From positions 5,020,001-5,084,000 of the forward strand of contig NZ_AP023367.1 of NCBI RefSeq assembly GCF_014218335.1: a stretch of DNA of 64,000 nucleotides, read 5' to 3'. The notes below the pieces were generated by a model. The model did no database searches. It had not been told where the DNA came from and saw only the letters and a list, made by a program, of their open reading frames with translations. The number at the start of each line of letters is the position of its first letter. The stretch's first letter is position 1. The stretch comes from Anaerocolumna cellulosilytica (lineage in GTDB: Bacteria > Bacillota > Clostridia > Lachnospirales > Lachnospiraceae). Position numbers and translations under genes: made by a program. This document shows positions 9,634-24,533 of this stretch, in pieces.

Positions 9634-10281
9634 TTACAATCTGTTTTTAAGCATCCGATAAGTATAGTGCCCTACAAAACCTAAAAAGATACCTTTAACA
9701 ATATTAAACGGTGTAATTCCATATAAAATCAAAGTAAACTTATCCTTGATTCCCGGTATCCCCTTGGCAACTGCCACTACATTATCCATACCTCCATAGA
9801 GGTTAGCATATAGCGGAATAGTAACCAAATAATTCATTATAAACCCTACGGCGGTCATGACAATGGTTGCCACTCCAAAAATCAAGAAAGGATGGTGTTT
9901 CTTCTTCATCTTTCTATAAAGAAAGGCTGCCGGTACTACATAGGCTATGCTTATGATAAAATTAGCTAACTCACCAATACCTGCTGTCTTTGTTGCGGTA
10001 ATGGCTTTAATTACATTCTTAATAAGTTCAATAACAACTCCTGCCATGGGTCCAAAGTGAAAGGCACCGATAATTGCAGGTATATCACTTAGTTCCAAGC
10101 GTAGAAATCCGATAAATGGTGGTGATTCTAATAGCATCAATACATAGGATAATGCTGACAAAAGACTGATGGTTACCATAGCTTTGGTGGTGAAGAACTT
10201 CTCTCTTTTTAATGGAATATCTTGCTTTTGAAATGTACTTTGGTTTTTTTCCTTTTTTACATTCTGGACGATTTGATTCAT
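9634..10281 (-). CDS. ribU: riboflavin ECF transporter S component RibU
   Basis: Substrate-binding membrane subunit of an energy-coupling-factor transporter for riboflavin. The 215 residues form about six hydrophobic segments; the RibU signature LELSDIPAIIGAFHFGPMAG lies near residue 78, followed by GIGELANFI. The start is ATG 10281, with AAAGGAGAG seven bases upstream. A GTG at 10335 in frame would lie in the T-run of the leader terminator and is rejected. The shared EcfA/EcfT energising module is not in this window. The FMN riboswitch directly upstream independently supports riboflavin as substrate. Confidence 0.93.
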   Translation of the reverse strand: MNQIVQNVKKEKNQSTFQKQDIPLKREKFFTTKAMVTISLLSALSYVLMLLESPPFIGFLRLELSDIPAIIGAFHFGPMAGVVIELIKNVIKAITATKTAGIGELANFIISIAYVVPAAFLYRKMKKKHHPFLIFGVATIVMTAVGFIMNYLVTIPLYANLYGGMDNVVAVAKGIPGIKDKFTLILYGITPFNIVKGIFLGFVGHYTYRMLKNRL

Positions 10282-10334
10282 ATTCTCTCTCCTTTTTTTC
10301 TTGGAAAGGAAAATTCTTGGCTGCTCCTTAAACA

Positions 10335-10362
10335 CAAAAAACCTCGAACATAAAATTCGAGG
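10335..10362 (-). terminator. FMN-riboswitch expression-platform terminator
   Basis: Minus-strand hairpin CCTCGAA-TTTTATG-TTCGAGG followed by TTTTTTG, between the FMN aptamer and the ribU start. It fits a transcription-attenuation platform that is OFF when FMN is bound. Confidence 0.85.
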
Positions 10363-10401
10363 CGATTCATAACGTATTGTTGCATATATCTATGCAATAA
10401 T

Positions 10402-10553
10402 ATTTCTTCTCACATCCAGACTTTACTGTCGGTTTTGGAATCTCACCAAATCAACTGAAAAATTGCTACTCTGTCGTTTCTAAAATTACTTGCAACTTTT
10501 CAGGTCGCGGACTATACCGCCGGTCGGGAATCTCACCCTGCCCCGAAGAATTT
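10402..10553 (-). ncRNA. FMN riboswitch (RFN element)
   Basis: Read on the minus strand the RFN hallmarks appear in order: GGGGCAGGGTGAGATTCCC, GACCGGCGGTATAGTCCGCG, then GGTGAGATTCC-AAAACCGACAGT and AGTCTGGATG-GAGAAG closing P1. All six-helix junction segments are recognisable. It controls ribU. Confidence 0.97.
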
Positions 10554-10578
10554 CCTTCTTTATTCTTTTTACTATTTT

Positions 10579-11384: not shown

Positions 11385-12596
11385 ATGGAATTACATGAAT
11401 CAGTTTTAATATCTTTATTATCTTATGCAATCCGGGCAGAGCATCCTGCTTTTAACGAGGTTAACAACATTTCCTGGGATAGATTATTTGAAGAAGCTGC
11501 TGCTCACCAGGTACATACTCTGCTCTATCCTCTAATTGCTGACTTAGGGGAAGATTCCATACCAGCCCCCCTCCTTTCCAAATGGAAACAAGAGACCAAG
11601 TCTGCTGCTGCCAGACAGTTACAACATGTTGAACAGGTAAATACTATTATAAAAGTCTTCCATAATAACAGCATTTCTGTTATTGCACTAAAGGGCCTGG
11701 TTTTAAGAAATTATTATCCAAAGCCTGAACTTCGAACGATGGGAGATGGAGATTTACTTATACATAAAGCAAATATGAAAAAAGCAAAAAAACTTCTTCA
11801 AAAGATGGGATACCGTTTAAAAGAGAATACTCCCCGCCATTTTTGTTTTTCTCATAAGTACTTTCCGCTGCTTGAAATGCATCAATGCTTAAGTGAAAAA
11901 GAAATACAGTGTATCTATCCTGACTTAACCACAGCTGTATTGAAACGCAGCGAACGGATAGAAATCAAAGGCATGGACGCTTCTATATTCACCCTATCTA
12001 TAGAGGATATGTTTCTTCATTTGTTGTTGCATTTTGCTGGCCATCTAATGTCAGAGGGTATTGGCTTGCGAAGTGTATGTGATATTGTATTGTTCTTAGA
12101 AAAAGAAGGGTTGAAATTGGATATGGGTTATCTGCAGGACAAACTACTCACCTGTCGGCTTACTCATCTGGCAGCAACTTTAGTACGGTTATGTGAGAAA
12201 TATTTTTCCTTAAAACTACCATGTATCTTTCCCGGTGCTGTAGAAGATTCCGACGTAGATTTACTCATGGAGGATATTCTGGATGCCGGGGTGTACGGTC
12301 GTAAGACGATGAACCGGGATATTAGCGGCAGCTTGTTAAAATACTATTCTTCTTGTAATCATGAGAAACATAATACACTAACTTTAAAACATAAGGCATT
12401 ATTTTATTTCCCATGCAGTAAATGGCTACACTCCCGATACTGGTACGCCAAGAAATTCCCTCTTTTATTACCGGTAGCATGGATTCATCGAGGTCTGCGC
12501 AATTGCTTCCGGTTAAAATCTCTGTACCTTTATAAAGAGGCAGCCATTATTAGCCAGAACCGTGCTTTGCTGATTAACCGCCTAAAGCTTCGCTAA
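11385..12596 (+). CDS. nucleotidyltransferase-family protein (NTP_transf_5 type) of a RiPP-like locus
   Basis: A 403-residue protein whose central part carries ALKGLVLRNYYP and RTMGDGDLLI (about residues 104-130), the G-[S/L]...D-x-D pattern of the uncharacterised nucleotidyltransferase family PF14907. Proteins of this family occur in kinase-bearing lasso peptide clusters and near polysaccharide genes. Start ATG has TGGAGG six bases upstream. Its 3' end overlaps the convergent ABC exporter by 23 bases, tying it physically to the operon on the other strand. I infer a tailoring role on the peptide, for example nucleotidyl transfer to a phosphate or hydroxyl; the sequence does not show the substrate. 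Confidence 0.75.
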   Translation: MELHESVLISLLSYAIRAEHPAFNEVNNISWDRLFEEAAAHQVHTLLYPLIADLGEDSIPAPLLSKWKQETKSAAARQLQHVEQVNTIIKVFHNNSISVIALKGLVLRNYYPKPELRTMGDGDLLIHKANMKKAKKLLQKMGYRLKENTPRHFCFSHKYFPLLEMHQCLSEKEIQCIYPDLTTAVLKRSERIEIKGMDASIFTLSIEDMFLHLLLHFAGHLMSEGIGLRSVCDIVLFLEKEGLKLDMGYLQDKLLTCRLTHLAATLVRLCEKYFSLKLPCIFPGAVEDSDVDLLMEDILDAGVYGRKTMNRDISGSLLKYYSSCNHEKHNTLTLKHKALFYFPCSKWLHSRYWYAKKFPLLLPVAWIHRGLRNCFRLKSLYLYKEAAIISQNRALLINRLKLR

Positions 12597-14268
12597 CATA
12601 CGTAGAACTTATTTCTGATTTTTCATATAATCTACCTTTGTTTAATTCTAAAATTCTATCGCAAAACTGCAAGAGAGTTAGACGGTGGGTTATAATAATA
12701 CAGGTTATGCCTTTATACTGATTGCTAATTGCACGCAGTACCCTTTCTTCTGTCTCTGTATCCAATGCTGAGGTTGCCTCATCAAGGACGAGAATCGGTG
12801 CTTTCTTTATAAGTGCTCTTGCTATGGCTATTCTTTGTGCCTGTCCCTCTGAAAGCCCTATTCCTCTCTCTCCTATTATGGTATCTATTCCTTTCTCCAG
12901 CTTACTTATAAAGTCCATGGCGTCTGCCGTCTTTAAAACCATTAGCATTTCAGCTTTCGTAGCGTCCGGATCACCTATCCTGAGATTTTCAGCAATGCTG
13001 CCGGAAAACAAGGTGTTTCCCTGGGGGACATAGGCAATCAGATTACGCAGGGAAGCCTCCGTCTGCCATACCTCCTGCCTGTATTGAATAAACATCTTAC
13101 CTTTTTGGGGTTCTATTAACTGCATGAGAATATGAATTAAGGTAGTCTTGCCTTCTCCTGAGGCTCCAATTAGCCCAATCACCTCCCCTTTTTGAATCTG
13201 AAAGAAAAGTTCTTGTAAGACAGGCGCTTCATATTTGTAACTAAAGTGAATTCCTTCCAGATGAATCGAAGAAAAATCTAATTTAACCTCTTTCAAATAC
13301 TGTTTTTCACTTTCTTCTCCTTCCAGCTTAAGAAGACGCCTGGCAGAAGAAAAAGTGCTCATGGCCTGCGGCAATGTTCCTGCCAGTTCCATAAAAGGGC
13401 TTTGCACCTGAGCCACCAACTGTATAAACACTGTTAAGGTACCAAAACTTATGAGTCCCTTATATAGTTTATAAGCTCCCCATCCAAAAACCAACAAATA
13501 GCAAATCCAAAAACCTCCGGTTACCAATGTGCTTGTTATCTGTGATGCCAGGCTTTTTTTTAATACCAGCTTCTTCTTGGTTTCCTGAAGCCTTGAAAGA
13601 TTCTGCTCCATAGCTTCCTCCCTGCAAAAGGTTTTTTGAATGAGAATATGTTCAAGACTTTCCTGTATATAAGAACGATAGTTACTTTCTGCCTCCTGAG
13701 CTTTTTCATGTATGACTATAAACCTGCTCCCAAAGATATATCCTGCTAACATAGCCGCAGGCCCTAATAGCAATGCATAGGCTGCCATAACCGGATCATA
13801 TATAAGCAGTGTGATAACAGCCGCTAACACGCCTGTTGTTAATGCTATCACTTCCGGAACAGCTCTAACCAAACCACCGGCTGCAATATTCACATCACTG
13901 GTGATACGCGTCATTAAATCCCCGGTATGATACGCTGTGTAATCTAGCCAACGCATGTGAGATAGACGATGAAACAGTTTATTTCGCATCTGGTTTGACA
14001 TATTTTCCAGGGTATTCACAGATAGCATAGTGCTTATTCCTTTTAATATAATCTGCGCTACAATTACAAGCACAAAAGAAAGGCAGGCTTTTACAGCCTG
14101 CTGCCACACTCCCTCTACCGCACCGTCAATTAACGCCTTTGAAAGCACAGCTAATGCTACCCTTAACAGTGACAAAACACTTCCTATGACAATGAGTGTT
14201 ATAAGAGACCAGAAATATTTCTTGACCCAGACAGATAACCAGAAAACTGTACTTAGGTTACGTTTCAT
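12574..14268 (-). CDS. ABC transporter, permease-ATPase fusion (peptide exporter candidate)
   Basis: A 564-residue half transporter: six transmembrane helices in roughly residues 15-290, then the ATPase domain with Walker A GASGEGKTT (about 367-375), signature LSEGQAQRIA near 472, Walker B ILVLDEA near 492 and H-loop near 528. No N-terminal C39 peptidase domain, so leader removal would need another protease; the S24/S26-type gene just upstream is the obvious candidate. I choose ATG 14268, because it overlaps the preceding stop codon as ATGA and has GGAG nine bases upstream; ATG 14274 is the alternative. The local context predicts export of the modified peptide. Confidence 0.85.
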   Translation of the reverse strand: MKRNLSTVFWLSVWVKKYFWSLITLIVIGSVLSLLRVALAVLSKALIDGAVEGVWQQAVKACLSFVLVIVAQIILKGISTMLSVNTLENMSNQMRNKLFHRLSHMRWLDYTAYHTGDLMTRITSDVNIAAGGLVRAVPEVIALTTGVLAAVITLLIYDPVMAAYALLLGPAAMLAGYIFGSRFIVIHEKAQEAESNYRSYIQESLEHILIQKTFCREEAMEQNLSRLQETKKKLVLKKSLASQITSTLVTGGFWICYLLVFGWGAYKLYKGLISFGTLTVFIQLVAQVQSPFMELAGTLPQAMSTFSSARRLLKLEGEESEKQYLKEVKLDFSSIHLEGIHFSYKYEAPVLQELFFQIQKGEVIGLIGASGEGKTTLIHILMQLIEPQKGKMFIQYRQEVWQTEASLRNLIAYVPQGNTLFSGSIAENLRIGDPDATKAEMLMVLKTADAMDFISKLEKGIDTIIGERGIGLSEGQAQRIAIARALIKKAPILVLDEATSALDTETEERVLRAISNQYKGITCIIITHRLTLLQFCDRILELNKGRLYEKSEISSTYVSEALGG

Positions 14269-14753
14269 ATACATCCTCTCCTTCTTTTTATGCTTTGCCG
14301 TATATTACGCAATCGTCCATTGAACCGGATTAAAAATATACGTATGGGAAATGCCAGCCTCCACATAAAAACGAGTGCCTGAAGCAGTTTGTGAGTACAT
14401 TCTATATATTTTTCCTCACGCCAGATGCCTTCTGCCTTTGCCGCAAACTGTTCCGGATAGATAGGACCTTCACACCACTGTTCAGCATCTCCACATAAAT
14501 ATATTGCCACTTTTGTCTTTTTCATTACCCTGTGAAGTACATATTGTTTGTTTTTTCGTTGTATGAGTACAATATCCCCCGATTTAATGCAAGCAAAGTC
14601 TGTGCCTGCAAGTGTAACACTATCTTTGCCTCCCCTCAAAAAGGGATACATGCTCATACCTGTCACCGTAATACGCACCCTGCCTCCGGCGTTAAGCAGT
14701 TCCTTTATAACAGGCATCATCTTCTCAATTTTTAAATATTTTATATCAGACAT
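14265..14753 (-). CDS. S24/S26-type peptidase (signal-peptidase-like), putative leader peptidase
   Basis: A 162-residue protein with the box TGMSMYPFL (Ser34 as nucleophile), SGDIVLIQ near residue 58 and YVLHRV (His74), the Ser-His arrangement of SipW/ER-type signal peptidases instead of the Ser-Lys dyad; GDAEQW follows. Unlike secreted signal peptidases it has no N-terminal membrane anchor; the hydrophobic stretch is C-terminal (about residues 127-145), followed by a very basic tail. The gene overlaps its neighbours on both sides, so it is translated with them. I infer that it cleaves the precursor or its leader; LexA-like regulation is unlikely because no DNA-binding domain is present. Confidence 0.75.
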   Translation of the reverse strand: MSDIKYLKIEKMMPVIKELLNAGGRVRITVTGMSMYPFLRGGKDSVTLAGTDFACIKSGDIVLIQRKNKQYVLHRVMKKTKVAIYLCGDAEQWCEGPIYPEQFAAKAEGIWREEKYIECTHKLLQALVFMWRLAFPIRIFLIRFNGRLRNIRQSIKRRRGCI

Positions 14754-15595
14754 TGATAAACCAACTCCACTGCCTCGTTATCAGGCCTGCATCGCAACTT
14801 ATATACAGGCACTAACGCTATTATATTTTCTAGATTGCATAGTGCCAAATCCATAATTTCCGGCTGATAATACGGCAAAAAACATCTGGGCAATAATCTT
14901 TTGGCGGCTTCTCTGCCATCTAAATTATGGATAGAATTTTCTACTGCCTGTTCAAGTACCACAATTGCTCTAAGAGGCACTGATTTATTTTTAAATTTCT
15001 TGGAAGAACCATTCCAAAGAGTTCCGTAAACATACGGTGTATTACCAATGATTCGCAGTGCAGGCCGATCTGCATTAATTATTCTTGCTCCCATATGCTT
15101 CTTCCACAAATTAGCCTGTGTGGTTTTTCCCATACCGGATGGTCCGCAAAAAAGAATTCCCTGCCGTTCCCACTCAATGGCTGCCGCATGCAGCACAATC
15201 CCCTGATGAAACAGAATACGGTTGCGAAACATAATTTCGCCAAAGGCTCCTGTTATGTAGTCCAAAGGTTTTTTATACTTTTTTGCAAATGTAATTAAGC
15301 ACTCTTTCCATGCCTGGTCTGTTGTAAGACAGCAGACAGCCTTATTGGTATCTGCCTCTTTGATATAGAGGGTGTTTCCTCCGCACCCTTCTGTGGGTCT
15401 ATGCCATCTTAAGTTCTCATCCAGTCTGGTAGTATATTCTGGCATCAAAAGCTCCTCTTGGCGAACTATAGTTACGTTAAGGTCTGCCGGATGCTGTTCC
15501 AGAGACGTAAAACAGAGTAACTTTTTATTTCTTTTCAACCGAAAATCTGCGTTTAGTTGAATACACAAACCGGCTACTTGAATTGTTTGTGTCAT
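14741..15595 (-). CDS. HPr kinase-like protein (peptide kinase candidate)
   Basis: A 284-residue protein whose C-terminal half has the HprK-type P-loop GPSGMGKTT (about residues 151-159), preceded by LHAAAI and followed by NADRPALR. The N-terminal domain of true HPr kinase/phosphorylase is missing, so it is not the carbon-catabolite enzyme. In paeninodin-type lasso clusters a homologous stand-alone kinase phosphorylates the C-terminal Ser of the precursor; the precursor encoded just upstream here also ends in Ser. The start is ATG 15595 with AAGGAGG eight bases upstream; a longer frame from 15628 is rejected because it would include the ribosome binding site. Confidence 0.8.
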   Translation of the reverse strand: MTQTIQVAGLCIQLNADFRLKRNKKLLCFTSLEQHPADLNVTIVRQEELLMPEYTTRLDENLRWHRPTEGCGGNTLYIKEADTNKAVCCLTTDQAWKECLITFAKKYKKPLDYITGAFGEIMFRNRILFHQGIVLHAAAIEWERQGILFCGPSGMGKTTQANLWKKHMGARIINADRPALRIIGNTPYVYGTLWNGSSKKFKNKSVPLRAIVVLEQAVENSIHNLDGREAAKRLLPRCFLPYYQPEIMDLALCNLENIIALVPVYKLRCRPDNEAVELVYQCLI

Positions 15596-15660
15596 CCGGC
15601 ATTCCTCCTTTATGTATGGTAAAACCATAGTTTTAATTTTGGGGGATATCTTTAAATGTT

Positions 15661-15837
15661 TTAACTACAGGAGGTACTGCCGGACCATACCCTTTTACAC
15701 CTGGTACACCAGCCAAAAATCAAGGCCAAAATTACATTCATTAAGGTTGAATTAACATAGCTGTTACCGCAGGTAGCCAGCCTCTCTTCCGGCCTAAGTT
15801 CAACTATCTCAAATGTTGGCTTAACATACGTCTTTAT
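15661..15837 (-). CDS. putative RiPP precursor peptide with AUA start codon
   Basis: Between the radical SAM gene and the kinase gene lies an open frame of 58 codons. It begins KTYVKPTFEIVELRPEERLA, a leader-like segment (Y-x-K-P then acidic L-R-P-E-E), and continues with a Cys-containing region: Cys23, 44, 47 and 57, Trp43 and Trp51, ending in Cys-Ser. A perfect AGGAGG (15845-15850) lies seven bases before the codon where the leader should start, but that codon is ATA; no ATG, GTG or TTG is available in frame until deep in the peptide. It is either initiated at AUA at low efficiency or its start has been lost by an ATG-to-ATA change. Position, ribosome binding site and composition make it the best candidate substrate of the locus. 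Confidence 0.7.
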   Translation of the reverse strand: MKTYVKPTFEIVELRPEERLATCGNSYVNSTLMNVILALIFGWCTRCKRVWSGSTSCS

Positions 15838-15863
15838 AAAATCACCTCCTGTCTGAAATATAT

Positions 15864-16952
15864 CTATACCATAACCTGTTTCCTTTCCCTGGCCAATTCA
15901 CACAAATATTGGGAAGCCTTTTCAAAGCTTCCGGTCTCGTTATAAAGTTTTGCAGGACAAGTTGCACAATATTCCGATAGCTCACAGTTCGAACAAACTT
16001 TGCATACCGGTACCAGACTGCAAAGCTTTATCAGTTCCTTCCATGCTGTCTGAAAGCCCTTTTCAAAAGGTAAAGTACTTGGCTGGTTCATAAAGGAGCA
16101 GGGTACCATCTTCCCCTCCCAAGTTATCCAAAAGGAATTTTTTGCACTGCCACATTGAAAAGGGTCATTTATATCATACAATTGGCATGACTGCTCCTGT
16201 GTATGATTTGCAAGGGAGGTGTCCTCCGTAACATAAGCATGGGACGTATCGGTTCTTATATTATATTCTTCTATTCTTTTTTCAAGCAGGGCTGTTTCCT
16301 TTGGTGAAAGCCTTGTATTTTGGGCGGGTTTTTCTCCATCTCTTCGTGGTGATATGTAATTAACTATGCCTAGCTGCAAGCCGAATTTTTTTGTAAGCTC
16401 TGCCATGTTCTCAAAATCATCTACATTCTCTTTAATAATACTTGTTCTGACCTGTACATTTATTCCCTGAGCTAACAACAATTCAATTCCGTTTAAAGTA
16501 CGGCTAAATCCTTCTGCATTACCACAGACTTTTTTGTAGGTCGCCTGAGATGCTCCATACAAGGTTACCTCTATTTGTGAAGGTCTTACTCTTCCAAGCC
16601 AGCTTGCAATCTGAGGAGTAATCAGGGTTCCATTGGTATATAAGGTTAAGTTAAAGCCCATCATAGCCAATTCTTCATAGATAACTTGAAAGTCTTTTCT
16701 TATAAAAATTTCACCGCCTGTTAGCAGGAGAAATAGCATTCCCGCATCAAAGGCCTCCTTAGCCAGCCCTATCCATTCTTTTGCAGAACGTTCTTTTTTT
16801 TCGGCCTCCTTTTGATTGAGACAATTCACATAACACATACCACAACTTAAATTGCACCGCCCTGTTAGTTCAAACTCTCCAATAAGCGGAAGCTTTTGTT
16901 CCATAGAATTTTTTACTAGACGTCCGCTTAAGGTTCCCCAAGTGGTGCTCAT
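15864..16952 (-). CDS. radical SAM/SPASM peptide-modifying enzyme
   Basis: A 362-residue enzyme with the SAM-cluster motif CNLSCGMC (Cys33, 37, 40), LLTGGEIFIRKDF near residue 75 and LYTNGTLI, then a C-terminal SPASM region containing CGSAKNSFWITWEGKMVPC and a dense Cys cluster, CKVCSNCELSEYCATCP, for auxiliary iron-sulfur clusters. This layout is shared by PqqE, sactisynthases and other RiPP enzymes that form thioether or carbon-carbon links. Its ATG overlaps the stop of the PqqD-like gene by four bases, the classic pairing of recognition protein and enzyme. The linkage formed cannot be read from the sequence. Confidence 0.9.
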   Translation of the reverse strand: MSTTWGTLSGRLVKNSMEQKLPLIGEFELTGRCNLSCGMCYVNCLNQKEAEKKERSAKEWIGLAKEAFDAGMLFLLLTGGEIFIRKDFQVIYEELAMMGFNLTLYTNGTLITPQIASWLGRVRPSQIEVTLYGASQATYKKVCGNAEGFSRTLNGIELLLAQGINVQVRTSIIKENVDDFENMAELTKKFGLQLGIVNYISPRRDGEKPAQNTRLSPKETALLEKRIEEYNIRTDTSHAYVTEDTSLANHTQEQSCQLYDINDPFQCGSAKNSFWITWEGKMVPCSFMNQPSTLPFEKGFQTAWKELIKLCSLVPVCKVCSNCELSEYCATCPAKLYNETGSFEKASQYLCELARERKQVMV

Positions 16953-17218
16953 ACCTTAAGGAATCCTTTTTCTGTTATATTACTTATGAACTCTCTTACA
17001 TCTAGCCTGGCTGTTTCTTCGTCCACCTCATAACTACCAGTAAGCAGACTAATTAATTCTTTATCGTCTGTAACCTCTTGCTCCAAGCGTTTCCATAAGA
17101 GTGCGCCGCTTTCGCTTAAGCTCATCAATCCGTTAAATTCCACCACTCGCTGTCCTACCGGTACTACCACCCAAGAGTCTGCAATTTCCCTCAGTAAAAA
17201 TCCCTGCTTTACTTTCAT
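16949..17218 (-). CDS. PqqD-like RiPP recognition protein
   Basis: An 89-residue protein with the PqqD/RRE pattern: an N-terminal beta region (FLLREIADSWVVVPVG), the FNGLMSLSESGALLWKRLE helix-turn, and a C-terminal acidic helical region (DVREFISNITEKGFL). Such proteins bind the precursor leader and present it to the modifying enzyme. First gene of the operon; AGGGAGG lies six bases before ATG. Its four-base overlap with the radical SAM gene indicates translational coupling and 1:1 production. Confidence 0.88.
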   Translation of the reverse strand: MKVKQGFLLREIADSWVVVPVGQRVVEFNGLMSLSESGALLWKRLEQEVTDDKELISLLTGSYEVDEETARLDVREFISNITEKGFLKV

Positions 17219-17321: not shown

Positions 17322-18104
17322 CTATGAATTATTCTCAGCCAGATTCATTTTTTTCTTTGCTATTTTATAGCTGCGTTCCTGTCTTGTTTCTTCTCCTTCT
17401 AAAGGAATGAATGCCAATGTGGTAGTTCCTAGCCAGCGTTCCACATCTTCTGCCCCACGTATTTTATCATTGGTATAATATAGAATCAGAATAACTGCGG
17501 AAGTAATAGCAATTCCAATTACTGCTCCGCTTATAATACTGCGTACTAAGTTCAAGCCTTCTGGATTTATGGGCAGATTACCATATTCTACTATGTTTAT
17601 TTTTTCCATTACCATGGTATTTACCAGTTCTTTGGATGCCACAACTGCTATTGCATCTGCAAGATTCTTTGCCCTTTGAGGGTCATAATCTGTTACACTT
17701 ACCTCTAATACTCTTGTACCTTCCGGATTGCTAACAGCTATCATTGCGCCAAATTCATTAATACTAAGCTTTTCACCGGACTGATAAATAACCTTTTCCA
17801 GAATAGGGCGACTTTTTAGCAGTATCATAAAATCTTGTGTTAACACAGCACTTGTCTGCAAGTCTGAATAAGTAGTCTTGTTATCGTTCTGTCTGTTAAT
17901 GACATATAGCTTGGTAGTTGATGTATAAATCCGCTCAACACCAAAAAGGCCGATAAACGTAATGGCCGCGGCAGTTAAAGCACCCGCCAGAAGGATAATA
18001 AAGAGCTTTTTATATAAAATAAACAAAATCTCTTTCATATCTAATTCAACTATATCGTCTCTTCTTGCCTCTAATCTTGAATCTGCCATCCTGTATGATT
18101 CCAT
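17322..18104 (-). CDS. Wzz-like chain-length regulator (YveK/CapA type), copy 1
   Basis: A 260-residue membrane adaptor with two transmembrane segments (about residues 26-48 and 198-220) flanking an extracytoplasmic Wzz domain with SDLQTSAVLTQDFMILLKSR and the typical NPEG-proline segment before TM2. Such proteins partner with bacterial tyrosine kinases to set polysaccharide chain length. Start ATG 18104 is chosen because AAGGAAG lies six bases upstream; the frame is open to 18158. It is a paralogue of the protein at 22268, sharing LYVINRQ and SDLQT. A recurring leader RNA element (18122-18200) precedes it. It is the last EPS gene before the peptide locus. Confidence 0.88.
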   Translation of the reverse strand: MESYRMADSRLEARRDDIVELDMKEILFILYKKLFIILLAGALTAAAITFIGLFGVERIYTSTTKLYVINRQNDNKTTYSDLQTSAVLTQDFMILLKSRPILEKVIYQSGEKLSINEFGAMIAVSNPEGTRVLEVSVTDYDPQRAKNLADAIAVVASKELVNTMVMEKINIVEYGNLPINPEGLNLVRSIISGAVIGIAITSAVILILYYTNDKIRGAEDVERWLGTTTLAFIPLEGEETRQERSYKIAKKKMNLAENNS

Positions 18105-18121
18105 TTTTTCTTCCTTGGATG

Positions 18122-18200
18122 CTGTATATAGAATACAGTAATACAACACCTCTGCCACAATATAGGATTGAAGGAAGACAGTATGGCATCCTTTCTTTCT
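18122..18200 (-). promoter_or_regulatory. recurring leader RNA element, copy 1 (upstream of wzz copy 1)
   Basis: Minus strand: AAAGAAAGGATGCCATA ... TCCTTCAATCC ... TTGTGGCAG, then a CTGTAT/ATACAG hairpin and the ribosome binding site. GCCATA can pair with TGTGGC and AAGGA with TCCTT, the two interleaved pairings of a pseudoknot. The same architecture recurs at 19722, 21453, 32803 and 44105. Confidence 0.55.
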
Positions 18201-18376
18201 AATTTTCCTTGCAATCCATATGTAATATTATTCCATTTTTATTAAAAGATTATAGCTGATTCAGTGCCTTACTACAATGATATTTTTTCATCTAAGACAG
18301 TTTTTCATCTACAGTTATATTCATATTTTAACAGCAGCATTTCTGAATCCGCATACTTTTACCTCTTCTGACCTTT

Positions 18377-19705
18377 TTAGTGAATGTTTTTATTCCTCCT
18401 GCCAATGCTGTGATATTCAACACCTGCCTGATTCATATCACTAACTTTGTAAATATTTCTGCCGTCATACACTAATGGAGTCTGCATCCATAAGCTGTAT
18501 TCTTTGGGCGTTATGGATTTTATCTGGTTCCACTCTGTAAATATAAAACATATATTAGCACTTTCTAAGGCTTCTTTCGGTGTGTGAACATAAGTTATGG
18601 TTCCATTGTCGTTCTTCCCCTCAGGATAACGTGTTCTAAAGTTCTCAGTACCTACCGGATCGTAGGCATAAATAGCAGCACCTGCTTCTAATAGTAACGG
18701 AATATTGTCAAGACTGGGAGCCTCCCGTAAGTCATCGGTTCCCGGTTTAAATGTAAGACCTAAAATTGCTGCTTTTAAGCCTTTGAATGTAATCATACGG
18801 TCGCACGCCTTATAAAACAGTCTGGTTTTCTGCTCCTTATTCACATCCACTGCCGCTTCCACTGTTTTTAATTGGTAACCATACTTTTGCGCCAGATACT
18901 TAAGGGCTTTGGTGTCCTTTGGAAAGCAGGAACCGCCATAACCTATACCTGCTTTTAAAAACATCCCTCCAATCCGGTCATCAAAAGACATTCCTTTTGC
19001 TACATCTTCTATGTCGGCATCCACAAGTTCACATAGATTCGCAATGTCGTTCATATATGATATTTTAAGTGCCAAAAAATCATTACTGGCGTACTTAATC
19101 ATCTCAGCCGAGCGCCTGCTTACTGATACAATTGGCAGATTAAAATTCTGATAGATTCTTAATAAACACTCTTTTGCCCATTCACTTTCTGTACCAATAA
19201 TAATTCTAGAGGCATGAAGGGTATCATGCACAGCAGTACCCTGGGCTAAAAATTCAGGATTAGAGGCAATTTCTACCTTCACATCGTGAACTAAAAAATC
19301 CTTTATAAACTGTTCTACCTTATCATTGGTACCAATGGGGACCGTGGATTTTACAACTATCAGACAATCCTGCCGTACGGTTTCAGCAATCTGCCTTGCT
19401 ACCGTTGCTATGTAGGAAAGGTCCGCCGACCCATCTGTCCGCTCCGGAGTGCCTACACCTATAAAAATGGCATCTGCATACTCATATGCTTTAATATAAT
19501 TCGTGGTATATTCTATTGTTCCTGCCTCGTAGTTTTTCCTCATTAATTCCTCTAAATCTGTCTCATAGATAGGTGATATTCCTGCTTTCATAAGTTCCAC
19601 TTTATTAACGTCTACATCCACACAGGTTACCTTGTGGCCTTTTTCAGCGAAACACACTCCTGCTACCAGACCCACATATCCGGTACCGGCTACTGCAATA
19701 TTCAT
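18377..19705 (-). CDS. ugd: UDP-glucose 6-dehydrogenase
   Basis: Oxidises UDP-glucose to UDP-glucuronate with two NAD+, supplying an acidic sugar for exopolysaccharide. The protein opens with the Rossmann motif VAGTGYVGLVAGVCFAE, has the catalytic region GYGGSCFPKDTKAL (Cys of the thiohemiacetal) near residue 255, and a C-terminal UDP-binding domain with GLTFKPGTDDLREAPS. I use ATG 19705 because homologues start M-x-I-A-V-A-G-T-G; ATG 19717 would add four residues. The gene carries its own leader RNA element (19722-19794). Confidence 0.95.
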   Translation of the reverse strand: MNIAVAGTGYVGLVAGVCFAEKGHKVTCVDVDVNKVELMKAGISPIYETDLEELMRKNYEAGTIEYTTNYIKAYEYADAIFIGVGTPERTDGSADLSYIATVARQIAETVRQDCLIVVKSTVPIGTNDKVEQFIKDFLVHDVKVEIASNPEFLAQGTAVHDTLHASRIIIGTESEWAKECLLRIYQNFNLPIVSVSRRSAEMIKYASNDFLALKISYMNDIANLCELVDADIEDVAKGMSFDDRIGGMFLKAGIGYGGSCFPKDTKALKYLAQKYGYQLKTVEAAVDVNKEQKTRLFYKACDRMITFKGLKAAILGLTFKPGTDDLREAPSLDNIPLLLEAGAAIYAYDPVGTENFRTRYPEGKNDNGTITYVHTPKEALESANICFIFTEWNQIKSITPKEYSLWMQTPLVYDGRNIYKVSDMNQAGVEYHSIGRRNKNIH

Positions 19706-19721
19706 CTTTATACCCATTGCC

Positions 19722-19794
19722 TATTGCAGGCATGCCTGCAATACTGCCACTAATAGAATCGGTTGAAAGAGATTGCTGTGTGGCTTCCTTTCTT
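19722..19794 (-). promoter_or_regulatory. recurring leader RNA element, copy 2 (upstream of ugd)
   Basis: Minus strand: AGAAAGGAAGCCAC ... CTCTTTCAACCG ... TTAGTGGCAGTA, followed by the perfect hairpin TTGCAGGCATGCCTGCAA and then the ugd start region. GCCAC pairs with GTGGC and GAAAG with CTTTC in an interleaved (H-type pseudoknot) order. Confidence 0.65.
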
Positions 19795-19873
19795 TTACTT
19801 CCCCTCAACTTTACTCTCTTGTAAACCGGAAACGGTATAAGAACCTATGTTACTTTTTCGTTTCTTTCTTTTG

Positions 19874-20650
19874 TCACATAAGATATTTACCTGCTAAAAC
19901 CTTCTTTGGATTATAAATAAATAGTGCTTCGGCATACTCTGTCCCATATTTTTTCTTTATAAATTGAAAACACTTTTTTATTGCCGGAGCTCTCTCCGTA
20001 TCATCATGAGCATCGGTAGCCGCCACATGAACTAATCGGTACCGCAATAATTTTTTACACCGCCTTTTTTCCTCCCGTCCAAATTCTCCAAGTACTCCGC
20101 CAGTATTTATTTGCAGATAGACTCCCATATCTGTCAAATTCCGTATTTTTTCTAACTCACAAAGATTATCATATCGTTCCGCATGAGCCAGTATAGGTCG
20201 GTAACCGTTTAATATCATGTCCTGAAGTCCGTTTTTTATATATTTATATTCTGCATAAGGAGAGAATTCCACAAGAATATAGCGGCTGTCCGCAATAGTA
20301 GGTATCACTCCATCCAAAAGCATATGTACACTTTCATGACTATAATATATCTCACAGCCAAGTGTTAAGGTAAGTCCCTCGAATTCTTTAGCTGCCACCT
20401 TTATTTGGTTTAATTTCTCTATAAGTCGTATTGTGGGGTTCTCAAAAACCGTTTCTTTGTAATGAGGCGTTACAGCAATTGCCCGTATTCCTTCTTTATA
20501 AGCCAACTTAAGCATATTTATTGCTTGCTGTAAATCTTTAGCCCCGTCGTCCACTTCCGGAAGTATATGGCAATGCAGATCTATAAATCCGGTCTTATTC
20601 TTCTGTATATATTTTTTTCTGCATTTCCTCAATATCCTTTTCAAAATCAA
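19874..20650 (-). CDS. CpsB/CapC-type PHP-domain protein-tyrosine phosphatase
   Basis: Metal-dependent phosphatase (258 residues) that dephosphorylates the capsule-type tyrosine kinase. It shows the PHP motifs DLHCHILPEVDDGA near residue 23, AIAVTPHY near 58, CEIYYSHE near 99, LAHAERY near 154 and VAATDAHD near 210, the full set of His/Asp metal ligands. The start is TTG 20650, with GGAGG nine bases upstream. It follows the small membrane protein at 20678, with 27 bases between, and precedes ugd. Confidence 0.92.
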   Translation of the reverse strand: MILKRILRKCRKKYIQKNKTGFIDLHCHILPEVDDGAKDLQQAINMLKLAYKEGIRAIAVTPHYKETVFENPTIRLIEKLNQIKVAAKEFEGLTLTLGCEIYYSHESVHMLLDGVIPTIADSRYILVEFSPYAEYKYIKNGLQDMILNGYRPILAHAERYDNLCELEKIRNLTDMGVYLQINTGGVLGEFGREEKRRCKKLLRYRLVHVAATDAHDDTERAPAIKKCFQFIKKKYGTEYAEALFIYNPKKVLAGKYLM

Positions 20651-20677
20651 TTCCCAGAACCTCCATTCCCCGGATTC

Positions 20678-20851
20678 TTAAGAAAGAATACGAATCATGG
20701 GTGGGTATTCCCCGTCAGTACCAGTGCGCATTTTACTAATATAACTTTTCATAATGAAATACCCTGAAAGTCCTATCACAAGGAATATGCTCAAGACGAT
20801 TGACAGTCCGGTAATAATTGCCCTGCTGTGTTTATTGTTTACTCTGGACAA
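20678..20851 (-). CDS. small single-pass membrane protein (57 residues)
   Basis: Unrecognised small gene between the Ig-like protein and the phosphatase. It starts at TTG 20851, one base after the stop of the upstream gene; the end of that gene (GAGG, eight bases upstream) provides its ribosome binding site. The protein has a basic N-terminus (MSRVNNKHSRA), one hydrophobic helix (about residues 11-34, AIITGLSIVLSIFLVIGLSG) and a short polar tail with a GTDGEYPP segment. Tight spacing, ribosome binding site and a clean transmembrane helix support a real gene; it could be a small accessory subunit of the EPS machinery. Confidence 0.6.
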   Translation of the reverse strand: MSRVNNKHSRAIITGLSIVLSIFLVIGLSGYFIMKSYISKMRTGTDGEYPPMIRILS

Positions 20852-20852
20852 G

Positions 20853-21440
20853 CTATTTTACCTCAATCCATACGTATTCTTTATTGGACTCAATTCCTCT
20901 TAAGTCCGTAACATATAATAATAAAACATAATTACCAGGTGTATCTATGTCGTATTCTCCGACTATGGTCAGGTTACTTATAAGCTCTTTTCTGGATTGA
21001 CCTCTATCTAGGATTTCACTAATTAAAGAAGCCGGCTCAAAAGAAGTACCTATCGGTAAGAGAATCTGGTTTGTTGACAGCGTAATCTTAGGAGGTACTT
21101 CCTCCTCTTCGGTCTGCCTTGCCTCATAAGGAATCAATATCTCTTTTTTTGAAATATTATTGCTTTTATCCTTTGCCACATAGGTAACCTTAGCCGTAAT
21201 ATTATCAATCATGGGCAATATGTCTTCGATTATGACAGCGTTTGTTACATCTCCGTCCCTATCGTCAATGGCGGTAACCGATTTAAGCAGTTCCTGCGGA
21301 TCTTTCCCTTCACAATAAACCACATCTGAACTAATCACCTCTATAACCGGACCCATCCTATCCTCTGAAACAGATAATAAAATAAAGATTCCAGTTAAAA
21401 TTACAGTAAAGATACTGGCAAGCAGTATGAATTTTCTCAT
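20853..21440 (-). CDS. membrane-anchored protein with Ig-like (DUF5011-type) repeats
   Basis: A 195-residue protein with an N-terminal signal anchor (about residues 2-22) and an extracytoplasmic region that looks like two beta-sandwich repeats: one with VTAIDDRDGDVTNAV and VTYVAKDKSNN, the second ending GEYDIDTPGNYVLLLYVTD. The D-D-R-D-G-D-V-T string is typical of DUF5011/cadherin-like domains. The start is ATG 21440 (AAGGGG upstream, nine bases); the frame is open to 21464. It lies between the tyrosine kinase and the phosphatase in the EPS locus and may bind polymer or cell wall, which is an inference from fold and place only. Confidence 0.75.
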   Translation of the reverse strand: MRKFILLASIFTVILTGIFILLSVSEDRMGPVIEVISSDVVYCEGKDPQELLKSVTAIDDRDGDVTNAVIIEDILPMIDNITAKVTYVAKDKSNNISKKEILIPYEARQTEEEEVPPKITLSTNQILLPIGTSFEPASLISEILDRGQSRKELISNLTIVGEYDIDTPGNYVLLLYVTDLRGIESNKEYVWIEVK

Positions 21441-21452
21441 AATGATACCCCT

Positions 21453-21518
21453 TGCATACCGCAACCACTATGCGGTATCACCACAATAAAATAAATCAAA
21501 CTATGGCCTTCCTTTCCT
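21453..21518 (-). promoter_or_regulatory. recurring leader RNA element, copy 3 (upstream of Ig-like protein)
   Basis: Minus strand: GGAAAGGAAGGCCATA ... TTATTGTGG, then the hairpin ATACCGC/GCGGTAT and AAGGGG. It has the two outer boxes and the pre-start hairpin of the family but lacks a clear CTTTC partner, so it is the most divergent copy. Confidence 0.5.
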
Positions 21519-21591
21519 AATATTAAAACCTTTCCGTACTACATGATTTATTTTGTACCCGTTAGAATCAATGACCTGTCTTCTTACTTCC

Positions 21592-22281
21592 TTAAGTTCC
21601 ATAATATTTGCCATAGTATTTATTGTATTGTTTTCCGTAGTAATTCCTCTGTTTTAGACCAACTTTATTTAAGATGACCCCTAGTACATGACAAGTCCCC
21701 TTCTTAAGTTGCTTTAGTACCTTCTGGGCAAGTTTATAACTGATGCTATTGGACTGGATAACCAATATGGTTCCATCACAGGCTTCTGCAATTGTAGCAC
21801 TATCAATTACAATTCCAAGGGGAGGCGTATCTATTATGATATAGTCATACTGCTCTCTTTGTTTGCAGATTAACTCTTGAAAAGATGGTTTAGTGATTAA
21901 ATCCAGTGGATTCGGGGGGGTTGGACCTGCAAATATAATATCAAGATTATCAAGATTGCTTTGATACAATACCTCCTCTAATGTATTGATGCCGGAAAGA
22001 TACTGGGATAGCCCAAGTACGCCTTTATCAATTTTTAATCGACCCGCCAGTACAGACTTGCGCAAATCAGCATCTAAGAACAATACCTTCCTTCCGCTCT
22101 CAGCTAAGGAATTGGCCAAACGAAAAGATACCAGACTTTTTCCCTCATTGGGAGTACAGCTTGTAATACAAATGGTCTTTATATCTTTTCCGCAAAATTG
22201 TATATTGGTGCGCAGGGTATTATAAGCTTCCGTACTTCTGTAATTCATATCTTCTAATTTCTCAATCTTAATAGATTGCAT
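21592..22281 (-). CDS. BY-kinase (CpsD/CapB-family tyrosine-protein kinase)
   Basis: A 229-residue cytoplasmic kinase that autophosphorylates a C-terminal tyrosine cluster and controls polysaccharide assembly. Walker A CTPNEGKSLV (about residues 41-50), Walker A' VLFLDADLRKS near 70 and Walker B DYIIIDTPPLG near 143 are present; the tail QYNKYYGKYYGT carries the tyrosines. Its start overlaps the end of the Wzz-like gene at 22268 by 14 bases, which matches the split adaptor/kinase pairs of Firmicutes. GGGGAGG precedes the ATG. Confidence 0.93.
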   Translation of the reverse strand: MQSIKIEKLEDMNYRSTEAYNTLRTNIQFCGKDIKTICITSCTPNEGKSLVSFRLANSLAESGRKVLFLDADLRKSVLAGRLKIDKGVLGLSQYLSGINTLEEVLYQSNLDNLDIIFAGPTPPNPLDLITKPSFQELICKQREQYDYIIIDTPPLGIVIDSATIAEACDGTILVIQSNSISYKLAQKVLKQLKKGTCHVLGVILNKVGLKQRNYYGKQYNKYYGKYYGT

Positions 22282-23041
22282 TATTGTTTCCTCCCCTGTA
22301 GCCTTTTTTATATGCTTTTTTAAGCTCTGCTTTGACTTTTTTAGAATTCAATATCCCATTCTCTTCCGGGATTGTTCCAAGTATAGTTAAGCCCAGATGT
22401 TTTTCTACATCCTCACCAGTCCTTATAGTGTCATCCAGAAAATAAAAAAATAATATAAAGAAGGTTGCAACCAGCCCTCCGGCTGCTCCACCTAAAAACA
22501 TGTTTTTTTGTAAACTTGGAGATACCGCTCCAACAGGTATGTTGCCGCTCTCCACGATATTAGCCTTTTCTATTTCCATGATAGCAGCCATACGTTCCGC
22601 CGATATGAAGCAGATTGCATCCGCTATTTTTTTTGCAGTATAAGGATCTGGATAATTCACGGCAACCTCCAGGATTCTTGTATCTAAAGGTGTCGTTACC
22701 GTTATGTGAGATACCAATTCCTCATGGGTAGTAGCTAGCCCTAAATCCGATATAACCTGTTCTGTTACCGGTCTGCTCTTAACCAGTATCTGAAAATCCT
22801 TAGTCAACTGAGTTCCGGTCTGTAAGTCCGAATAACTGGTTGTCTTCTTTTCATCCTGTCTGTTTATTACATATAGACTGGCTGTGGACTGGTACATGGG
22901 ACGAATCCTTGCTTTTGTATATATTCCAGCACTCAGTGCACAGAGAATACAGGAAAATACAATAATCCACACCCGTCCCAAAAGAATATAAAATAATTCC
23001 TTAAAGTCGAGTTCGATTATCTCATGACTATTTTTCTCCAT
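22268..23041 (-). CDS. Wzz-like chain-length regulator (YveK/CapA type), copy 2
   Basis: A 257-residue membrane adaptor with transmembrane segments at about residues 16-36 and 185-207 and a Wzz domain containing LYVINRQDEKKTTSYSDLQTG and DFQILVKSRP. It overlaps the tyrosine kinase gene and is presumably its activating partner. The second paralogue, at 17322, lacks an adjacent kinase; the two may share the one kinase or set different chain lengths. Confidence 0.92.
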   Translation of the reverse strand: MEKNSHEIIELDFKELFYILLGRVWIIVFSCILCALSAGIYTKARIRPMYQSTASLYVINRQDEKKTTSYSDLQTGTQLTKDFQILVKSRPVTEQVISDLGLATTHEELVSHITVTTPLDTRILEVAVNYPDPYTAKKIADAICFISAERMAAIMEIEKANIVESGNIPVGAVSPSLQKNMFLGGAAGGLVATFFILFFYFLDDTIRTGEDVEKHLGLTILGTIPEENGILNSKKVKAELKKAYKKGYRGGNNNAIY

Positions 23042-23114
23042 TGGTCTGCTTACCTTTCAAATATATTCATGATTCTTCTATTATTTTCAGATTTGCTGTG
23101 TTTTAGTTTCACAG

Positions 23115-24533
23115 CTATTTTGAACCTTTTCCAAAAAAAACTACCCATATGGTTTTTAAGATAATTTTTAAGTCTATAAATATATTCCAGTTATCAATAT
23201 ATTCCAGGTCCAGCTTTACTACTTCTTCAAAATCCGTTATGTTACTCCGTCCGCTGACCTGCCACAAACCAGTTAACCCGGATTTTAATGTCAGCCTTCT
23301 CCTATGTCGGTTTTTATACTGCAAAAATTCATCTTCCGTTGGCGGCCTTGTTCCTACTAAGCTCATGTCTCCCTTTAGGATATTAATAAACTGAGGAAAC
23401 TCATCCAAACTGGTTTTTCTTAAAAAGCTTCCAACCTTAGTTATCCGGGGATCATTGGTAATCTTAAACATATACCCACTCATTTCATTTTGTGCAAGCA
23501 ATTCTTTTTTTCTTGCTTCTGCGTCCATATACATGGAGCGGAATTTATAGATCCGAAACCTCCTTCCGTTCTTACCTACCCTAACCTGTGAAAAAAATAC
23601 AGGCCCTGGGGATTCTATCATAATTGCTGGTGCAATAAAAACCGTAAGTACTGCTGTTATCAAACAACCCACTAAGCCCGCTGTAATATCTAAGAATCTC
23701 TTCAGCCTTAGCTGTCTTTCATTAAAAAGTTTGGAGCTAAAGGTTAAAACATGATATCCTCCCAATTCCTGAAATTTTTTTTCATGTATTTTTAATCCAA
23801 AGGTATTAATACTTAAATTAACGGTTATGCCCATATTTTCAAACTCTAGTATGATTTCCTCCAGCTTCATAGGTATACTGTAGGAATTCGGCAAATGTAT
23901 CAGTACACTATCTAATGTTTGATTCTTTGCTGTTTCAAACATGGTATCTATGTCTCCCTTTACTTCAACTCCTTCTATTATTTCTCCTGCTCGGTTATCA
24001 TCTAATAAAGTGAGGCAAGTTATTTGGTGTTCCCAGTCATATTCTTTTTGCATATTCAACAGCAGCTCTTTAACCTGGTCTGTAGTGGTCAGAATCATTA
24101 GTTTTTTACTGGCAGAGCTTTTCTTGTATATGGATAATAGTAATATTTTAAAATACTGTCTGGCTATGTAAGTAATTAAAATATTCATCAGAAAGAAACT
24201 TATAAAAAATATTCTTGAATAGAATAATCCCTCTTGAAAAATAAAGAGTACCAACGTAAAAGACATTGCAAAGATGCCGTTTATTTTACAGACTGCCTTA
24301 AACTCTTCCCAAAATCCTCTTTTAAAAACCAGACTATACGTATCATAAACATAGTAAATAGCTACATACAAAATTAAGAGAAAGGCGGATGCAAATCCAT
24401 AAAGACTACCAGTCCAATCTCCTATGATACCTCCAAACCGTATCCAAGCTGAAAAAATGAAAGATATTATAATGCAGGAAAGGTCTGTAAGCAGCAAATA
24501 CAAATTAGGCATATCCTTCTTTTTTCTGTACAT
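23115..24533 (-). CDS. polyprenyl-phosphate sugar-1-phosphate transferase (EPS initiating enzyme)
   Basis: A 472-residue enzyme of the WbaP/WcaJ type. Four N-terminal hydrophobic segments (about residues 10-110) and a Rossmann-like middle part are followed by a fifth transmembrane segment near 285 and the catalytic bacterial sugar transferase domain with FFSQVRVGKNGRRFRIYKFR, KTSLDEFPQF, DMSLVGTRPP and KSGLTGLWQVSGRS. It transfers a sugar phosphate to the lipid carrier, the first step of repeat-unit synthesis. ATG 24533 or TTG 24536 is possible (AAGGA upstream); it overlaps the upstream gene by about 29 bases. Confidence 0.92.
   Translation of the reverse strand: MYRKKKDMPNLYLLLTDLSCIIISFIFSAWIRFGGIIGDWTGSLYGFASAFLLILYVAIYYVYDTYSLVFKRGFWEEFKAVCKINGIFAMSFTLVLFIFQEGLFYSRIFFISFFLMNILITYIARQYFKILLLSIYKKSSASKKLMILTTTDQVKELLLNMQKEYDWEHQITCLTLLDDNRAGEIIEGVEVKGDIDTMFETAKNQTLDSVLIHLPNSYSIPMKLEEIILEFENMGITVNLSINTFGLKIHEKKFQELGGYHVLTFSSKLFNERQLRLKRFLDITAGLVGCLITAVLTVFIAPAIMIESPGPVFFSQVRVGKNGRRFRIYKFRSMYMDAEARKKELLAQNEMSGYMFKITNDPRITKVGSFLRKTSLDEFPQFINILKGDMSLVGTRPPTEDEFLQYKNRHRRRLTLKSGLTGLWQVSGRSNITDFEEVVKLDLEYIDNWNIFIDLKIILKTIWVVFFGKGSK

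Follow-up and report, generated by a model that had tools for sequence, protein, structure and literature searches.

A probable LPP-type peptide gene cluster with an added radical SAM/SPASM enzyme in Anaerocolumna cellulosilytica

The window analysed here is a stretch of 64,000 nucleotides (bases 5020001-5084000) from the genome of Anaerocolumna cellulosilytica, which consists of a single contig of 5,430,627 bases. At window positions 11385-17218 it carries a seven-gene set that is read, with the balance slightly in favour, as a cluster for a ribosomally synthesized and post-translationally modified peptide (RiPP) of the linear polyphosphorylated peptide (LPP) type (Popov et al. 2026, PMC13381572), to which a radical S-adenosylmethionine (SAM)/SPASM maturase has been added, and whose product would be cross-linked at Cys, phosphorylated at Ser, cleaved and exported. 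In the proposed pathway, a PqqD-like discrete RiPP recognition element (RRE) would bind the YxxP leader (Y4-P7) and present the precursor; the radical SAM enzyme would cross-link the core cysteines, most likely as thioethers; an HprK-like kinase would phosphorylate a Ser of the core, with the C-terminal Ser58 as the likeliest site here; an NTP_transf_5 enzyme may attach a sugar to the phosphate; a signal-peptidase-like enzyme, aided by the RRE, would cut after Ala21; and an MsbA-like pump would export the 37-residue peptide, which would act in some way at the capsule or the cell surface. The genes, their order, the orthologous peptides, the conservation of the leader and of catalytic residues, and the linkage to capsule genes were computed here; the substrate and bond of the radical SAM enzyme, the phosphosite, the sugar, the cleavage site and the role are what we infer.

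The reading was adopted for several reasons. The five-gene core of the locus is that of LPP, for which phosphorylation and leader cleavage were shown by others. Cores with Cys track radical SAM loci (32 of 32 candidate precursors, against one of 18 at loci without the enzyme). A C-terminal Ser, the site used by paeninodin-type kinases, is enriched in the radical-SAM precursors (17/31, against 64 of 1287 open reading frames (ORFs) of at least 100 residues from the same loci). The Ser, His and Asp of the peptidase are invariant in all 19 homologues, and the peptide maturases SuiB and SkfB are the nearest folds to the model of the radical SAM protein. The kinases of 41 radical SAM loci, moreover, form one group in the kinase tree, which speaks for a stable partnership.

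The features are as follows, with window coordinates.
16949-17218, minus strand: PqqD-like discrete RRE (Pfam PqqD, 53.7 bits, E 2.6e-14).
15864-16952, minus strand: radical SAM/SPASM enzyme with CxxxCxxC and seven SPASM Cys (Pfam, 74.4 bits, E 1.6e-20).
15845-15850, minus strand: Shine-Dalgarno sequence AGGAGG of the precursor gene, 7 nt ahead of ATA (sequence).
15661-15837, minus strand: precursor peptide gene, 58 codons plus stop, ATA start (orthologues in L037-L042).
14741-15595, minus strand: HprK-like kinase (likely start 15595; longest ORF 14741-15628; invariant residues and HPr kinase profile match).
14265-14753, minus strand: archaeal-type signal peptidase (S24/S26), probable leader peptidase (NCBIfam TIGR02228, 34.6 bits, under the cut-off of 51.85).
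12574-14274, minus strand: MsbA-like ABC exporter lacking a peptidase domain (Pfam ABC_membrane and ABC_tran only).
11385-12596, plus strand: NTP_transf_5 nucleotidyltransferase, convergent (Pfam, 201.2 bits, E 2.7e-59).
17322-24536, minus strand: capsule/exopolysaccharide genes, given as context, membership uncertain (Pfam).

All genes named in the original prediction were found by ORF coordinates and by Pfam and NCBIfam scans, in the place and with the one-strand overlaps and convergent NTP_transf_5 gene that it had described, and its view of a RiPP locus joining lasso-type accessory genes to a radical SAM enzyme was borne out. The minus-strand genes are transcribed in the order RRE, radical SAM/SPASM enzyme, precursor, kinase, peptidase and exporter, with overlaps of 4 nt (radical SAM/PqqD), 13 nt (S24/kinase) and 10 nt (ABC/S24); the NTP_transf_5 gene enters from the opposite strand, overlaps the exporter gene by 23 nt and holds the same position in L037-L042. 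The exporter scored 289.5 bits with the MsbA-related NCBIfam model, under its cut-off. Promoter-like sites (14, against a shuffle mean of 20.0) and terminators (5, against 5.0 in shuffles) showed no excess.

According to the main text of Popov et al. (PMC13381572), LPP clusters of Bacillota, characterised in Paenibacillus and charted across genomes of Bacilli, encode a SipW-like signal peptidase, a discrete RRE, an HprK-like kinase, a nucleotidyltransferase and an MsbA-like transporter; by deletion of genes and by in vitro experiments, LppK was shown there to phosphorylate core Ser3 and LppS to remove the leader with the help of LppB, so that functions of the kinase, peptidase and RRE are established in the LPP relative. 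The locus studied here shares with LPP the archaeal-type Ser-His-Asp signal peptidase, the discrete RRE, the kinase, the nucleotidyltransferase and the exporter, as well as a YxxP leader, a capsule-gene neighbourhood and a cluster free of macrolactam cyclase and B2 protease. It differs in the added radical SAM/SPASM gene, in a core that contains Cys and in the many precursors that end in Ser; moreover, the LPP motif YxxPxVLxHQxIxFETxxS fails beyond YxxP, and the window leader is two residues longer after Pro. Because a radical SAM enzyme is present, the linearity of the peptide is doubtful. Nowhere in the main text of the LPP paper, supplements apart, do radical, SPASM, Clostrid or Lachnospir occur.

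The original prediction had seen the radical SAM enzyme and the peptidase as occupying the places of the lasso enzymes; this has to be given up, as the kinase, RRE, S24/S26 peptidase, nucleotidyltransferase and exporter together are the published LPP core (PMC13381572, main text). Like the lasso peptides of the paeninodin/pseudomycoidin type, whose phosphosite is a C-terminal Ser in the published description (PMC8498205), the locus has an RRE, an HprK-like kinase, a nucleotidyltransferase and an exporter; unlike them, it has neither lasso protease nor lasso cyclase, its leader carries Y and not W, and it has a radical SAM enzyme and a signal-peptidase-type peptidase. A lasso cluster with a missing or distant cyclase and protease is given hardly any credence: of the solved RREs that the PqqD-like protein matched, four in all, three come from lasso systems, the best match among them, but the lasso protease domain Transglut_core3 has no match in the whole genome within the reach of the profile, and the genome's two Asn_synthase genes are at least about 0.5 Mb distant. 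The absence of both lasso enzymes from the locus, which had been claimed, thus held, and the lasso assignment was rejected.

The precursor has the leader xKTYVKPTFEIVELRPEERLA and the predicted core TCGNSYVNSTLMNVILALIFGWCTRCKRVWSGSTSCS. The in-frame codon behind AGGAGG is ATA (15835-15837), which is the apparent start codon; the 60 bases ahead of it contain no in-frame ATG, GTG or TTG, and the first downstream in-frame ATG is codon 33, within the core. Because of the ATA start and the lack of a usual start codon in the leader frame, the gene is missing from the ORF list. The small Cys-containing peptide of the original prediction is real and conserved in six congeneric loci; its start had to be corrected. 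Six of the seven other congeneric radical SAM loci (L037-L042) have the gene order of the window and a homologous peptide of 58-59 residues, which makes the small peptide more than a chance reading frame; the seventh (L059, genome G005) has another gene order and a different YxxP peptide. The family is thereby found in seven of the eight radical SAM loci of the genus (window counted), so that the lack of a conserved small peptide, which was to have told against the prediction, was not observed there. The seven peptides have in common Y4, P7 and the block VELRxEERLA-x-C; Cys23 and Cys47 are invariant, and CS forms the C-terminal end in 6/7.

Between the window and L038, the 20 leader codons compared show 12 synonymous codon changes and 2 residue changes (14 of the 19 nucleotide differences at third codon positions), against 23 residue changes in 37 core codons. 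Judged from these sequences, a conserved leader joined to a variable core is the pattern of a RiPP precursor, and the leader appears to be under strong purifying selection. The precursor scored above no cut-off in Pfam or NCBIfam. With a profile of the precursor, strong matches among 397 genomes of the family were obtained in its own genome and in one congener (few congeners were in that sample); the matches in 31 other genomes, at E 0.0028 or worse, were taken as noise. A frameshifted precursor, suggested by a peptide-like other frame downstream, was rejected, since the six orthologues keep the ATA frame to the end.

The ATA codon may reflect a mutation, attenuation or a sequencing error. AUA is a poor initiation codon, all six orthologues start with ATG, no alternative start was found in frame within the 60 upstream bases, and the genome holds a single copy of the peptide at E 0.1 or better; a copy in the window that is silent or decaying is for these reasons conceivable. 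It is considered rather improbable, as the frame is intact, the leader is conserved, the other genes are intact, the Shine-Dalgarno sequence is complete and well spaced, and a sequencing error is another possible cause.

A profile of the PqqD-like protein built from 13 homologues matched the RREs TbiB1, 9x90 (PbaB1), TfuB1 and 9x8z (LppB, E 3.9e-6) in the PDB. Its Asp and Phe stand four apart in DVREF, like D70 and F74 of LppB, from which a Tyr-type pocket is predicted. In the peptidase, the invariant residues are Ser34, His74 and Asp89, the last being assumed to be equivalent to D93 of LppS. The AlphaFold model of the peptidase (mean predicted local distance difference test score (pLDDT) 88.8) gave the human signal peptidase complex paralog C as its best fold match (E 6e-4), with LexA-type domains also near, and the fold scores were modest. 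Cleavage after Ala21, a small residue 14 past the Pro, would be the natural cut point.

Residues H135, G155, K156, T158, N173 and D175 of the kinase (numbering from the residue after Met) are invariant in 16 homologues, and its profile aligns with the HPr kinase structures 2qmh/1jb1 (E 3.4e-5) with the His, the P-loop and one Asp retained. Phosphorylation of a C-terminal Ser by paeninodin-type kinases is described in a review (PMC8498205), and from the comparison of precursors Ser58 is the most likely phosphosite here. The counts for the C-terminal Ser given above leave out a TTG ORF of L050; at the other loci 3/18 motif precursors end in Ser. L097-L102, which the kinase tree shows as kin of the window's group, account for 11 of the 14 precursors without a C-terminal Ser; seven of these 11 carry Ser at core position 2, so that an N-terminal phosphosite as in LPP is possible. 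The nucleotidylation entertained in the original prediction is judged less likely than glycosylation of the phosphate: a related nucleotidyltransferase puts one or two hexoses on the phosphorylated lasso peptide pseudomycoidin, as given in the published text (PMC8498205). For the homologous enzyme of LPP, LppN, the main text of the LPP paper reports no visible change on lppN deletion in a foreign host (PMC13381572).

The radical SAM protein has ten Cys that are invariant in 16 homologues (C33, C37, C40, C267, C285, C320, C323, C329, C332 and C351). Its AlphaFold model (mean pLDDT 86.5) has solved folds including SuiB, SkfB, MoaA, PqqE and 5wgg nearby; PqqE and the sactipeptide thioether enzyme 5wgg are within the top ten, so that the model resembles both C-C-forming and thioether-forming peptide maturases.

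For the search for precursors, short ORFs were taken on the kinase strand near each kinase if they had [YWF]xxPx together with a hydrophobic-small pair whose last residue lies 14 past the Pro; this spacing, first noticed by eye, was demanded by the pattern and is not an outcome, while Cys was not demanded. Collapsing three near-duplicates left 32 ORFs in 25 radical SAM loci and 18 ORFs in 17 other loci. Likely to be spurious are the TTG ORF of L050 in the first set and no fewer than three ORFs in the second, a pair in L144 and another in L169. Cys lies within the first six core residues in 28/32 precursors at radical SAM loci and in 0/18 elsewhere, and the sole Cys among the 18 sits in the doubtful L169 ORF. 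On these sequences, a thioether at the core Cys is most likely, as a best guess, the chemistry of the radical SAM enzyme. Among the radical SAM loci that gave no such ORF, L045, L051 and L062 have YxxP- or WxxP-type peptides that failed a filter.

The same phosphopeptide pathway with another radical reaction (a C-C or C-O link, epimerisation or oxidation), in which the cysteines form disulfides after export, is unlikely but deserves serious weight. SuiB and PqqE form C-C links, and they stand beside the thioether enzymes SkfB and 5wgg among the near folds; the NCBIfam matches of the radical SAM protein are far under cut-off and of mixed function; and a Cys-rich YxxP peptide is encoded on the Butyrivibrio fibrisolvens plasmid pNP243 with no radical SAM gene nearby. 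What speaks for the cross-linked reading instead is the presence of Cys in every motif precursor at radical SAM loci, mostly near the predicted cut.

Several observations weigh against the favoured reading of a cross-linked phosphopeptide. On the kinase tree, just one change (one independent pair) underlies the association of Cys with radical SAM loci, so that shared descent could explain it. No unique motif precursor was found in 18/43 radical SAM loci (3 of the 18 being collapsed duplicates, which leaves 15 loci with no motif ORF even when duplicates count), and some of the radical SAM loci (L052, L053, L064 and L065) have candidates of 100-125 residues with no YxxP leader and few Cys. On pNP243, the peptide (L177 8446-8619) adjoins PqqD and S24/S26 genes, and neither a radical SAM gene nor such a kinase is annotated in 18 kb, the annotation being perhaps incomplete. 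The distance from the leader Pro to the last leader residue is 14 here and 12 in LPP; a C-terminal Ser is missing in 14/31 precursors, the demonstrated LPP site being core Ser3; and the ATA start may leave the window copy weak or silent. The candidates of L052, L053, L064 and L065 are Gly- and Trp-rich with Cys near the end, and the pNP243 peptide is annotated as a hypothetical protein. In the plasmid search two matches were obtained for the peptidase and none for the radical SAM protein.

Other peptide classes were compared. Like sactipeptides and ranthipeptides, the locus has a radical SAM/SPASM enzyme with a fold near SkfB and 5wgg and a Cys core; unlike them, its precursor matches no family above cut-off. 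To our knowledge, the known classes of both have no HprK-like kinase, nucleotidyltransferase or signal-peptidase-like leader peptidase. The SynChlorMet cassette (TIGR04248-TIGR04251: ScmD, ScmC, ScmE, ScmF) supplies the best match of the kinase (ScmC, the nearest NCBIfam model), the best match of the radical SAM protein (ScmE) and the fourth match of the RRE (ScmD), but with scores far under the cut-offs (31.6/125, 104.4/400 and 16.6/100 bits, respectively). No paper on this cassette was found in the literature search; with ScmC, ScmD and radical SAM proteins grouped in its models, the cassette already hinted at the pairing of kinase and radical SAM enzyme. A search that covered few subscription papers and preprints brought up no paper recognised as describing a RiPP made with both an HprK-like kinase and a radical SAM enzyme, and no such pairing is described in the portions of PMC4289311, PMC9062424 and PMC8326336 that were covered. 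The earlier statement that no characterised class has this exact gene set therefore holds as far as the search reached; the phosphorylation kit was described in 2026 for LPP, and its combination with a radical SAM enzyme apparently has no earlier description. An anti-phage reading was set aside: PADLOC matched only the radical SAM core, with viperin models (E 1.8e-12 and 7.6e-11), and gave no match for the kinase, peptidase or PqqD, and the SPASM domain and the neighbours point elsewhere.

The window radical SAM protein was matched at E 1e-30 or better in 24/195 genomes (its own counted), including 7/14 congeners. A kinase profile built from 16 radical-SAM-linked kinases matched at 126 places, spread over 111 of the 391 genomes from the class; the flanks of 80 places were taken, the window and G040 were already in the set, and the analysis extends to these and not to the remaining 44. 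A labelled kinase was present in 79 of the 80 flanks and a radical SAM gene in 13. Four loci came from the contig scan of named relatives, and two of them, L035 and L036, have no kinase match. Pooled with the window and L033-L066, the flanks made 115 labelled loci: 43 with kinase and radical SAM gene, 66 with kinase and no radical SAM gene, and 6 with no kinase. Among the 43, PqqD was found in 39, the exporter in 28, the peptidase in 25, the nucleotidyltransferase in 20 and all six genes in 15; these are counts of loci and not of genomes (a few genomes have two or three), and contig ends depress them. All five genes of the LPP core were present in 7 of the 66.

A tree was built from 107 kinases of at least 200 residues, one per locus, by a quick method; it has long branches, and its finer structure is unsure. 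One branch (support 94) splits the 41 kinases of radical SAM loci from the 66 others, which amounts to one label change; several independent gains of radical SAM enzyme and Cys are thus unsupported, and every comparison between the kinase groups with and without the enzyme is a single evolutionary contrast. Since the 41 form one group, the partnership of kinase and radical SAM enzyme looks old and stable, in at least ten families by code. It is a plausible though tentative further step, held with a little less confidence than the reading of the locus itself, that this lineage is a separate RiPP class in at least ten coded families of the class, in which one RRE-guided machine does Cys cross-linking and Ser (poly)phosphorylation, possibly phosphoglycosylation, on the same peptide; through the phosphate, the peptide could further be attached to the neighbouring capsule polysaccharide.

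If the reading is right, one peptide bears a radical-made cross-link together with a (poly)phosphate or phosphosugar. It would also suggest a modular LPP/lasso tailoring kit, in which one set of RRE, kinase, peptidase and pump works both with the radical enzyme and in its absence, and a core composition that goes along with that enzyme (Cys with it, hardly any without it, in one evolutionary contrast). The many loci would be ready substrates for studying the order of steps and why such peptides adjoin capsule genes.

Ten ORFs from six of the 66 loci without a radical SAM gene (L111, L113, L115, L116, L134 and L159) were checked for a lasso cluster, which was rejected as they encode no lasso enzyme; four of them encode S-layer-homology proteins. 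A protein of 538-578 residues with an S-layer homology domain is present at L111, L113, L115 and L159, and may be a part or target of the linear branch.

Directly upstream of the locus (17322-24536) are genes for Wzz, UDP-glucose dehydrogenase, CpsB/CapC, an Ig-like protein, a CpsD-like ATPase, a second Wzz and a sugar-phosphate transferase. At least one of the seven capsule-type genes was matched beside 23/43 radical SAM loci (window counted) against 9/66 others, and Wzz adjoins PqqD in the window and in six of the seven other congeneric radical SAM loci (not L059). This linkage would suit genes that act on capsule polysaccharide with the small ORF as an incidental one, but the peptide is conserved with its leader under apparent strong purifying selection, the RRE and leader match solved RRE-leader systems, and the capsule-linked LPP relatives act on a peptide (PMC13381572, main text), so that this explanation is very improbable. 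The main text of that paper notes that LPP clusters often sit beside capsule loci and leaves the capsule-side role of the peptides open. The capsule-type genes include an initiating sugar-phosphate transferase, but no further glycosyltransferase, flippase or polymerase was found among the ORFs scanned, which included ten from there to 32.8 kb (24505-25167 left out).

An FMN riboswitch is present on the minus strand at window positions 10400-10554 (Rfam RF00050, 113.5 bits), and the ORF downstream of it (9634-10335, minus strand) reads as an ECF-type transporter subunit, probably for riboflavin uptake. Two further PqqD-like genes were found in the same genome, L057 9307-10587 (about 1.517 Mb) and L058 9413-9742 (about 4.929 Mb), one of which directly precedes a radical SAM gene and marks a possible second RiPP locus.

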